Shown in pieces: positions 49,592 to 52,125 of a DNA stretch of 64,000 nucleotides. Positions within the stretch are counted from its first letter, which is position 1, and the number at the start of each line of letters is the position of its first letter. The notes beneath the pieces were generated by a model. That model made no database searches. It worked only from the letters and a program-made list of their open reading frames with translations, and was not told the DNA's origin. The position numbers were made by a program, and so were the translations under genes. Source of the stretch: Paenibacillus borealis (lineage in GTDB: Bacteria; Bacillota; Bacilli; Paenibacillales; Paenibacillaceae); assembly GCF_000758665.1 (NCBI RefSeq), contig NZ_CP009285.1, positions 2,232,001 through 2,296,000 on the forward strand, read 5' to 3'.

Positions 49592-49799
49592 TCAGCTGTC
49601 TGCCGGAGGCTTCATGTAAGAGAAACGGCGCATTAATGAGCAAATCACCGGCTGCATAAGAGCAGGACCAAAGAGTGCGCTTTCATTCGTGATTGGACAG
49701 CATTCTTTGGCTTCTTTTGCCATCTGGAACATTTTACAATAAACGGCCATAAGCGTAAGATTCAAATCAACAACCGAATGAAATTGAACTGTTCTCAAA

Positions 49800-49985
49800 T
49801 GCTGAATTCCGGTAGCGGGAACGGGGGAACCAATGGTGAATGCGGCTTTCGTACAGATGCTGACATTCACCCGGGGTGAATCCTTGCAGCGGGCCAACAA
49901 GCCGCTCCGGCAAGGTAGGGCAATCTCGATGCCCGAATCCGTCAGCTAACCCCGTAAGCTTCGAAGAGAGAGGATGAGCGCCATG
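49800..49985 (+). promoter_or_regulatory. Cyclic di-AMP riboswitch (ydaO-yuaA class)
   Basis: Class-specific blocks occur in order: GCTGAATTCCGGTAGCGGGA and ACGGGGGAACCAATGG (49801-49836), GGGGTGAATCC (49873-49883), AGGTAGGGCAATCTC (49913-49927), and GCCCGAATCCGTCAGCTAAC then CGTAAGCTTCGAAGAG (49931-49967). This matches the known ydaO-type aptamer, in which c-di-AMP binding promotes termination. It lies upstream of the NfeD-like gene and flotillin, with a terminator in between. Confidence 0.88.
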
Positions 49986-49994
49986 ATCGAATGA

Positions 49995-50033
49995 CCGACC
50001 ACGGAGAGCCCTGCCGCTTCTGTGGTCTTTTTG
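49995..50033 (+). terminator. Riboswitch-controlled terminator
   Basis: GACCAC and GTGGTC flank an imperfect stem including GAGC/GCTT, followed by TTTTT. It is placed 10-45 bases after the aptamer as an expression platform. Confidence 0.7.
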
Positions 50034-50141
50034 CTGCGCCTGCAGGACAGGGAAAGCGGTATAGATGAGGAGGAATAAATCTTATAACAACGATAATTAG
50101 AAGGTTTGGCGCGGTTCTTTACTGCTTGAAAGGAGGGAACT

Positions 50142-50681
50142 ATTATCGTTACTGTATTTATCGTGTGCTTCTGGGTAGGGCTGCTGCTCCTCCTCAGCGG
50201 CGGAATTCATGGGCATGGCCTGGCGGGTCATCTGCATGCGGGGGGCGTTGATGCCGGAGGTCCGGGCTTTGTGCCGCTCCTCCCGCTGATGGTGTTTGTC
50301 ACAGTCTGGGGAGCTACTGGTTATGTCTTTACCCGGTTCAGCGGAATGCACTTGCTTGCAGTGATACTGATCTGCACCGTGACGGCTTTGCTGCTGGGCT
50401 GTCTGATGTATACGGTGCTGGCCCGGGTAATGACCCGGTATGACAGCAGCATGAAAGAAATGGATTATGAGCAGGCGGGACAGCTGGGATACATCAGTAT
50501 TGCTGCCTCGGACGGGGCGGTCGGGGAAATGAAATATGTGCTTCACGGCACGATGCGCTCCATAGGTGTACGGGCAGAAGCCGGCCAGCAGCTCGGGAAA
50601 GGTGACCGGGTCATTATTTTGAAGGTGAATAAAGGAATGGCGGCCGTAACCCTCTTCGAGCGGGAGACCGGACAATTATAA
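50142..50681 (+). CDS. NfeD-like membrane protein (YuaF type)
   Basis: A 179-residue protein with two or three N-terminal membrane helices (including VFIVCFWVGLLLLL and LLAVILICTVTALLLGCLMY) and a C-terminal OB-fold domain (about 100-179, with GAVGEMKYVLHGTMRSIGVR and GDRVIILKV). It is the partner of flotillin in B. subtilis (yuaF-floT). The start is odd: AGGAGGG (50131-50137) is followed only by ATT 50142 or ATC 50145 in frame; GTG 50163 is 25 bases away and would cut the first helix. A non-standard ATT or ATC start is therefore likely. Confidence 0.8.
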   Translation: MIVTVFIVCFWVGLLLLLSGGIHGHGLAGHLHAGGVDAGGPGFVPLLPLMVFVTVWGATGYVFTRFSGMHLLAVILICTVTALLLGCLMYTVLARVMTRYDSSMKEMDYEQAGQLGYISIAASDGAVGEMKYVLHGTMRSIGVRAEAGQQLGKGDRVIILKVNKGMAAVTLFERETGQL

Positions 50682-50703
50682 ATAACGGGGAGTGTCTAAC
50701 CAT

Positions 50704-52125
50704 ATGGTTATTCTTTATGTAATCGCAGCTATTGTTGTTGTCATCCTGCTGGCCTTGTTCAGTATCGTGAGCTCCTATAAAAAGGTTCCGCCCAATCAGG
50801 CAATGATTGTCTACGGTCTAGGCGGAAAAAGAGTAGTACAGGGCGGCGGGACATTCGTCATCCCCGGCTTCCAGAATAATAAGACCATCTCCATGATGCT
50901 GATGAGCTTCGATGTCATCCCCGCGCAGGCGATGTTCTCCCGGCAGGGCATCAAGCTCAACCTGGAGGCGGTAGCCCAGATTAAGATCAAAAGTGATCCG
51001 ACCGCGATCCTAACGGCCAGCGAGCAGTTTATCGACCGGCCGGAAGAGGACCGCGAGACCATTATTCTGCATTCGGTAGAAGGCCATTTGCGCGGCCTAA
51101 TCGGGCAACTGACCGTAGAATCCATTCTCAAGACACCTGACGAAATCAACAGCAAGATGCGGGAGACCTGCTCGGAGGATCTCGATAAGATGGGGCTTGA
51201 GGTGGTCAGCTTCACCATTAAGAAAATTACGGATGACAAAGGGTACATCGATAATATGGGGGTTCCGGAAATTGAGCGTATCCGCCGCGATGCCAGTATT
51301 GCCAAGGCTGAAGCGGAACGCGATATTCAGATTAAGCAGGCCGAGGCGGAGAAGGAATCCTCCATTGCCAAAGCCAATGCTCACCAGGCCACCATTGAAG
51401 CGGAAACCGCCGCCCGCGCGAAGGAATCCCTGTTCGAGAAGGAACTGAACATTAAGCAGGCGGACTTTAAGCTGGAGACAGAAGTGAAGAAGGCACAGGC
51501 GGATCTTGCCTATGAATTACAGCAGAACAAAATCAAGCAGTCGCTGGTTACCGAACAGGTCAAGATCACGCAGATGGAAGCGGAAGCGAACCGGACTGTA
51601 CGGGAAATCGAAGTGGAGCTGAAACAGAAGGAGCTGGAGGCAACGGTGATCAAGCCTGCCGAGGCGGAGAATCAGGCTACGGTTATGAGAGCGGAAGCAG
51701 CCAAGCAGCGGCAAATTCTTGAGGCGGAAGCAGAGGCAGCCATGACGACCAAGCGCGGGTTGGCCACGGCGGAAGCAGAGCTGGCGAAGGGAAAAGCGAA
51801 TGCAGAAATTGTCCAGTTGGCAGGAGCCGCAGAAGCCGGGGCACTGCAGAAGAAGGCCGAGGCTTACAAACAGTTTACGCAGGCCGCACTTACTGCAGAA
51901 TATTTGAAGATTCTGCCTGAGCTGGCGGACCGGATCGCTTCTCCGCTGGCCAAGGTCGATAAGATTACAGTGATTTCCCAGGATGGAGCCTCAACCGGTG
52001 TGAACAAAATTACCGGTGATATCGCCAAAATCATGGCTCAGGTTCCTGAATTGACCCAGACACTTACCGGTATGAACGTGACCGAGGCGCTTAGCGGTCT
52101 GCTCGGCCGGGGGAATGAGCAGTAG
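50704..52125 (+). CDS. floT: Flotillin family protein
   Basis: A 473-residue flotillin. An N-terminal membrane segment (VILYVIAAIVVVILLALFSIV) is followed by an SPFH domain (about 30-200) and a long Ala/Glu/Lys-rich coiled coil (about 200-370, with repeats such as AEAEKESSIAKANAHQATIEAE). It scaffolds functional membrane microdomains. I chose ATG 50704, 11 bases after GGGGAG, since GTG 50692 overlaps that site. It lies 22 bases after the NfeD-like gene, under the same c-di-AMP riboswitch. Confidence 0.94.
   Translation: MVILYVIAAIVVVILLALFSIVSSYKKVPPNQAMIVYGLGGKRVVQGGGTFVIPGFQNNKTISMMLMSFDVIPAQAMFSRQGIKLNLEAVAQIKIKSDPTAILTASEQFIDRPEEDRETIILHSVEGHLRGLIGQLTVESILKTPDEINSKMRETCSEDLDKMGLEVVSFTIKKITDDKGYIDNMGVPEIERIRRDASIAKAEAERDIQIKQAEAEKESSIAKANAHQATIEAETAARAKESLFEKELNIKQADFKLETEVKKAQADLAYELQQNKIKQSLVTEQVKITQMEAEANRTVREIEVELKQKELEATVIKPAEAENQATVMRAEAAKQRQILEAEAEAAMTTKRGLATAEAELAKGKANAEIVQLAGAAEAGALQKKAEAYKQFTQAALTAEYLKILPELADRIASPLAKVDKITVISQDGASTGVNKITGDIAKIMAQVPELTQTLTGMNVTEALSGLLGRGNEQ

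Follow-up and report, generated by a model that had tools for sequence, protein, structure and literature searches.

Positions 49733-52125 of the DNA analysed here, a 64,000-nucleotide stretch of the Paenibacillus borealis genome (the window), very probably constitute one transcription unit on the forward strand, in which a promoter, a cyclic di-AMP (c-di-AMP) riboswitch aptamer and an intrinsic terminator precede an nfeD-like gene and a second flotillin gene. With good confidence, we regard this single unit, its control by a c-di-AMP OFF switch and its product, a second scaffold apart from FloT, as the joint best explanation of the data. The elements of the unit and its upstream boundary are as follows:

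49668-49719, forward strand: intrinsic terminator ending the upstream unit (stem 49668-49710, T-rich tail), from fold energy
49733-49761, forward strand: sigma-A-type promoter, TTTACA-17-TAAGAT, from a consensus scan (9 of 12 consensus bases)
49790-49975, forward strand: c-di-AMP riboswitch aptamer (ydaO/yuaA, RF00379), from the Rfam covariance model
49918-49927, forward strand: GGGC-AA-UCUC, a strand of an aptamer hairpin and proposed antiterminator, from duplex energy
49966-49973, forward strand: aptamer tail GAGAGAGG, conserved in the leaders
49974-49994, forward strand: short frame ATG AGC GCC ATG ATC GAA TGA, with stop
49997-50032, forward strand: intrinsic terminator of the riboswitch (stem 49997-50027, T tract 50028-50032), from fold energy
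50080-50091, forward strand: conserved motif TCTTATAACAAC, from the alignment of leaders
50145-50681, forward strand: nfeD-like gene (two-helix membrane part, His-rich loop, YuaF-like domain; ribosome-binding site at 50130-50137)
50692-52125, forward strand: second flotillin gene, not FloT (SPFH and flotillin domains; 477 aa)

The aptamer, terminator, gene order, conservation and lack of a sigma-W-type match are all read from the sequence. A ydaO-class aptamer had been claimed in a preliminary description of the window, with a covariance-model search as the check, and RF00379 indeed matched 49790-49975 on the forward strand over all 134 model positions (1-134) with 93.1 bits (E = 1.3e-20; the gathering cut-off is 38 bits). 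The sole other match of the Rfam search in the whole 64 kb was one tRNA. As expected for a member of RF00379, an expression platform adjoins the aptamer (the terminator at 49997-50032). This hairpin and its T tract, also anticipated in the preliminary description, were well supported: the stretch 49990-50036 has a folding energy of -17.8 kcal/mol (z -4.3; 0 of 200 shuffles were as good), and the terminator is almost unchanged across 28 aligned leaders. The RNA reads as an ordinary member of the c-di-AMP riboswitch class, and the ligand that its class points to is c-di-AMP. The P. borealis genome encodes two diadenylate cyclase domains. Upstream, the unit is bounded by a terminator of -20.5 kcal/mol (stretch 49664-49722; z -3.4; 2 of 200 shuffles as good). 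Simple consensus scans for terminators and promoters are no proof on their own, because they returned 3 terminator-like sites versus 3.0 in shuffles and, in the region, 5 promoter-like sites versus 2.0. The weight of the promoter at 49733-49761 therefore rests on conservation: TTTTAC and GCGTAAGATTC are present in all 27 leaders with upstream DNA among the 28 aligned. The aptamer, both terminators and the promoter are predicted to make up a transcription unit of their own.

The downstream genes had been described as a YuaF-like gene and floT. An NfeD-like gene followed by a flotillin gene is present, but the latter is not floT; it encodes a second flotillin that has diverged strongly. Its product exceeds the Pfam cut-offs for flotillin domains (Band_7, 95.6 bits, cut-off 23.6; Flot, 40.6 bits, cut-off 27), and it scores only 330.5 bits with the NCBIfam FloT model NF058507, below the equivalog cut-off of 700, whereas a paralogue elsewhere in the genome (L042, G000:C1:2334148-2335572) reaches 846.8 bits and is the FloT equivalog. 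A tree built from 57 flotillins groups all nine rows of the window type together (100/100); their branch is long and separate from the 41 Bacilli FloT rows, to which the window flotillin is 34-39% identical. Given the midpoint root and a long-branch warning, the tree does not fix the deeper placement of this group. The score and the separate branch together rule out that the gene is floT. Among the best 120 of 7675 protein database matches, identity is 94-96% to Paenibacillus copies, 84-89% to three entries (some from metagenomes) and 63-74% to further Paenibacillus-named genomes and metagenomes, followed by 45-51%, with a few named Chloroflexota, Nitrolancea and Bryobacteraceae. An old horizontal origin of the window flotillin is a reasonable guess from these sequences.

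The NfeD-like frame has 179 codons and probably starts at an ATC at 50145, not at 50142. When the window and 32 orthologous loci are compared, ATC lies behind the ribosome-binding site in 32 of the 33 and ATA in one; in at least five of them (L015, L018, L021, L026 and L027) an in-frame stop is located 18 nt upstream of the ATC, and the stretch from this stop through 12 codons starting with the ATC is free of ATG, GTG and TTG. The protein has no Pfam match, resembles YuaF only weakly in a direct comparison (E = 0.45) and aligns with 24% identity to the NfeD of the FloT operon of the same genome. The latter matches the YuaF structure 2k14 (E = 4.4e-9), as does a joint profile of 24 sequences, and it is through this alignment and this profile that the protein is linked to the YuaF domain and placed among NfeD/YuaF-like proteins. 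A His-rich loop, HGHGL-x-(G/S)-H-x-H, is found in 15 of 16 window-type rows (L065 retains HGHGL) and is missing from eight FloT-type NfeD rows. In the window, this loop (50199-50240) lies between the membrane helices, and metal binding is possible.

The association of riboswitch and flotillin is conserved in relatives. This flotillin is held, with at least 94% identity and among the matches listed, by 33 of 100 genus genomes (P. borealis included), and 67 do not hold it. RF00379 is located in front of the flotillin unit in 31 of the 33 (18 of 20 loci, 9 of 12 loci in a second set that repeats L014 and L029, G045 in a longer stretch, and three further genomes). Thus, in the proposal that the riboswitch heads an NfeD-flotillin operon, the aptamer and its linkage to the operon stand, and the identification of the gene as floT does not. 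These 31 genomes and the occurrences in a sister family (see below) also rule out a local coincidence. In the 28 leaders of the 31 that were aligned, the aptamer core, tail and terminator are near-invariant and the side loops are variable. The 67 genus genomes without the flotillin count against the best explanation, as do three of those that have it. In G088 (L040) the promoter and genes are kept and the aptamer and terminator are gone; in G080 (L103) the outer part, tail, terminator and genes are present and the aptamer core is missing. Both of these exceptions, which lack a working aptamer, look like losses. In G045 the riboswitch lies ∼2.2 kb upstream of nfeD, with an opposite-strand ORF in this insertion. 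In one subgroup (L021, L026, L027, L029, L031, L032, L034, L041 and L044), the stretch between terminator and nfeD is swollen by repeats, with a maximum of 2.2 kb in G045.

The presence of a conserved motif past the terminator also counts against the best explanation. At its place, ∼50 nt 5′ of nfeD, ATAACAAC occurs in 32 of 33 loci, including G088 with its lost riboswitch, and resembles a -10 box. A promoter near TATAACAAC (50080-50091) might accordingly drive nfeD and the flotillin gene and bypass a real riboswitch for the most part, leaving c-di-AMP with little effect, and the expansion of the terminator-gene stretch in the leaders of one subgroup would fit such an arrangement. However, the alignment contains no conserved -35 element, and an ECF-type match is found in 0 of 32 testable leaders (L015, without the exact motif used, was left out). 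A separate promoter between 50033 and 50142 was also the objection raised in the preliminary description; the scan's sole promoter-like site in that interval (50118-50146) runs up to the probable start codon. That 31 of the 33 genomes retain both elements, aptamer and terminator, in full argues that they matter, and we consider a bypass improbable. As an element of a wider regulon, TCNTATAACAAC was rejected, because it has 9 sites genome-wide versus 6 for the reversed pattern.

Outside the genus, the flotillin was searched for at E 1e-100 in 394 genomes of the family and was found in the 33 genus genomes only. A search of 392 genomes of the order with the related P. aceris flotillin gave matches in 62, of which 30 belong to a sister family. 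Among the matches listed for these 30 genomes, RF00379 is located ∼720 nt 5′ of one flotillin copy in G572 and ∼780 nt 5′ of the flotillin in G536, which is split into two frames; the spacing in the window is 717 nt. Both leaders have the tail and terminator sequence in common with the window, and the gene order is the same, with an NfeD-like frame (39% and 41%) between riboswitch and flotillin. In the P. aceris group of the sister family (L259-L286), the flotillin is ∼72% identical between the two groups and the NfeD-like partner 34-40%; the five partners that were read are His-rich, like that of the window. Unlike in the window, no aptamer motif was found in the 900 nt upstream in any of the 28 loci, and 25 of the 28 have an ECF-type GAAAC-N15-18-CGTN match 5′ of nfeD. 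A third kind of locus, that of G599, combines NfeD with a flotillin and shows no aptamer motif in 12 kb. From this sister-family comparison, related flotillin operons carry an ECF-type promoter in some lineages and a c-di-AMP riboswitch in others.

The unit is in some genomes a neighbor of kimA. In P. albidus (G002) it is directly followed by a riboswitch and KimA, which was named from its match to 6s3k (E = 9.4e-261; no NCBIfam model fitted). G572 has an aptamer motif and a relative of KimA, named from 52% identity to P. albidus KimA, ∼4.7 kb further on. Such neighbors, along with the natural losses in G088 and G080, could mean that the riboswitch no longer regulates the operon, being either a relic or copied from a nearby kimA. 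We find this very hard to credit, as 31 of the 33 copies remain intact, a second family has retained the platform, and the two P. albidus leaders, one before nfeD and one before kimA, are widely different beyond the common core. On the same divergence of these two leaders, the idea that the leader was recently copied from kimA was rejected.

The two flotillin operons of this one genome have differing promoter types. The FloT operon (L042) has TGAAAC-N17-CGTT 5′ of nfeD and lacks RF00379 within the 7 kb analysed. The sigma-W-type pattern TGAAAC-N15-18-CGTN was found 5′ of nfeD in 10 of 10 NfeD-FloT paralogue loci, in addition to the paralogue of P. borealis itself, and in 0 of 30 window-type loci. 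The B. subtilis yuaF-floT(yuaG) operon resembles the window in having an NfeD-like gene followed by a flotillin gene; according to the available part of PMC5052260 it is sigma-W dependent, and yuaF, floT and floA go up through sigma-W when outgrowing spores are under salt stress, whereas the window has a sigma-A-type promoter and a riboswitch. It had been suggested that c-di-AMP would directly set membrane microdomain levels. This is not supported, because the FloT equivalog has a sigma-W-type promoter without a riboswitch, so general microdomain levels need not track c-di-AMP. The simplest reading of the sequences would be two flotillin scaffolds with two inputs.

For riboswitches of this class, the accessible portions of PMC6488665 and PMC5575661 report that transcription is terminated with c-di-AMP bound, and that c-di-AMP drops on K+ limitation in B. 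thuringiensis. By analogy, the riboswitch of the window is most likely an OFF switch: at high c-di-AMP the aptamer would be occupied, the terminator would form and the operon would be off, and a drop in c-di-AMP, such as under K+ limitation, would let the leader refold and the polymerase read through. Refolding could perhaps proceed by pairing of the GGGC..UCUC strand of the aptamer hairpin with GAGAGCCC (50004-50011), which is contained in the terminator loop. The predicted duplex with 49918-49927 has -12.3 kcal/mol versus -7.8 for the local hairpin, and 17 of 2000 shuffled terminator loops were as good. Among the 28 leaders, L038 and L039 deviate in this duplex (-10.4); both sister-family leaders retain GAGAGCC (duplex -9.2), and in G080 the aptamer strand is lost and the terminator loop altered. 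It counts against the candidate antiterminator that the local hairpin is formed first. RNAalifold folding of the alignment did not predict it, and the candidate pairing showed no covariation.

The aptamer tail resembles a ribosome-binding site and leads into a very short frame (49966-49994; also L002, L132, L043 and others), even before terminators. In the genus, ATG AGC GCC ATG ATC NNN TRA follows the tail in 32 of 32 leaders examined (31 with riboswitch, and G080, in which the aptamer core is lost), and the stop of the frame lies directly 5′ of the terminator. Translation of this frame might thus be the regulated step, with a ribosome that is gated by the aptamer hindering the terminator. 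A start codon 3-12 nt past the tail is found in 44 of 54 terminator-type riboswitches of the class versus 23.8 in shuffles, a test that ignores kinship and any structural need for these bases; CTG is not enriched there (4 versus 8.0 in shuffles). L003 and L213 were left out of this test, and 5 of 80 fetched tails had no locatable position. Against such a mechanism, 10 of the 54 have no start codon at this place, the frame runs on in L140, L186, L187 and L204, where it is probably the gene itself, and the stop is lost in L290, one of the two sister-family leaders (judged by eye). We regard it as unlikely for the window, and as a mechanism general to the class it was rejected, since start codons are enriched past the tail but the exceptions are too many.

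Bacterial flotillins are thought to organize membranes, but there is debate over when cells need them and for what reason; c-di-AMP is a signal for K+ and turgor. With c-di-AMP-dependent termination as the preferred mechanism, the sequences suggest that a K+/turgor signal decides when a second membrane scaffold is made, and the product would be a scaffold distinct from that of FloT and needed when K+ or turgor is low. More tentatively, FloT would serve under a sigma-W-type envelope-stress promoter, and the second flotillin with its His-rich NfeD, which has its control and sometimes its place in common with KimA, might form a low-potassium domain that organizes or protects K+ uptake systems. 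An extra flotillin under riboswitch control couples a single scaffold to a single signal and opens the need for flotillins to testing, and G088 and G080 provide natural alleles without a working aptamer for direct comparison.

That flotillin is not a usual target of the class, as the preliminary description stated, agrees with a survey of other Bacilli flotillin loci, 0 of 40 of which (35 outside the family) had RF00379 in the fetched DNA. The survey started from 49 flotillin places over the cut-off, with four of G000/G006 and five weak ones (G409, G377, G389, G359 and G432) omitted; the DNA comprised 4.5 kb counted from the Flot domain at the protein end, and thus ∼3.4 kb before a typical gene, with L243 and L238 shortened by contig ends. 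RF00379 was likewise not found at ten NfeD-FloT loci of the genus or family, seven distant-flotillin loci (mostly Clostridia) and one P. rhizophilus remnant. Surveys of the riboswitch class were reportedly made by Block (2010) and Nelson (2013). Class targets named in the available parts of PMC5670726, PMC13385884, PMC7266159, PMC5575661, PMC6488665 and PMC5052260 are K+ and amino-acid transporters, wall remodeling, osmotic shock and sporulation genes. The B. thuringiensis kdpFABC leader (RF00379; excerpts of PMC6488665) is similar to that of the window in aptamer, terminator, leader length and position before a membrane-protein operon; the target in the window is an NfeD-flotillin pair, in contrast to the transporter or wall enzyme typical of the class. 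In the P. riograndensis transcriptome, Table 3 of PMC5670726 gives one ydaO-yuaA element, before a wall hydrolase, and the supplementary list of 98 motifs of that study may already include the element of the window. No riboswitch-flotillin link was found in the literature covered, to which supplementary files and many subscription papers did not belong, and a text that names both ydaO and flotillin mentions the two separately in its available parts. The new parts are the flotillin target, the fact that two families have it, and the difference from FloT with its sigma-W-type promoter; the RNA class is already known.

The P. borealis genome contains nine RF00379 copies. Based on downstream frames and Pfam, the other eight precede an alpha/beta hydrolase; a small frame without match and then KdpA; two frames without match (divergent to the KdpA copy); one frame without match; a KimA-like amino-acid-permease-family protein; a G5/3D wall protein; and two NlpC/P60 proteins. 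The top-scoring c-di-AMP riboswitch of the genome (L001, G000:C1:4286067-4286199; 109.1 bits) lies directly 5′ of the alpha/beta hydrolase gene and probably acts on translation, because no terminator was found. Two divergent c-di-AMP riboswitches (L002 and L004, G000:C1:6055078-6055788) are located ∼360 nt apart, one facing the small frame and KdpA and the other the two frames without Pfam match.
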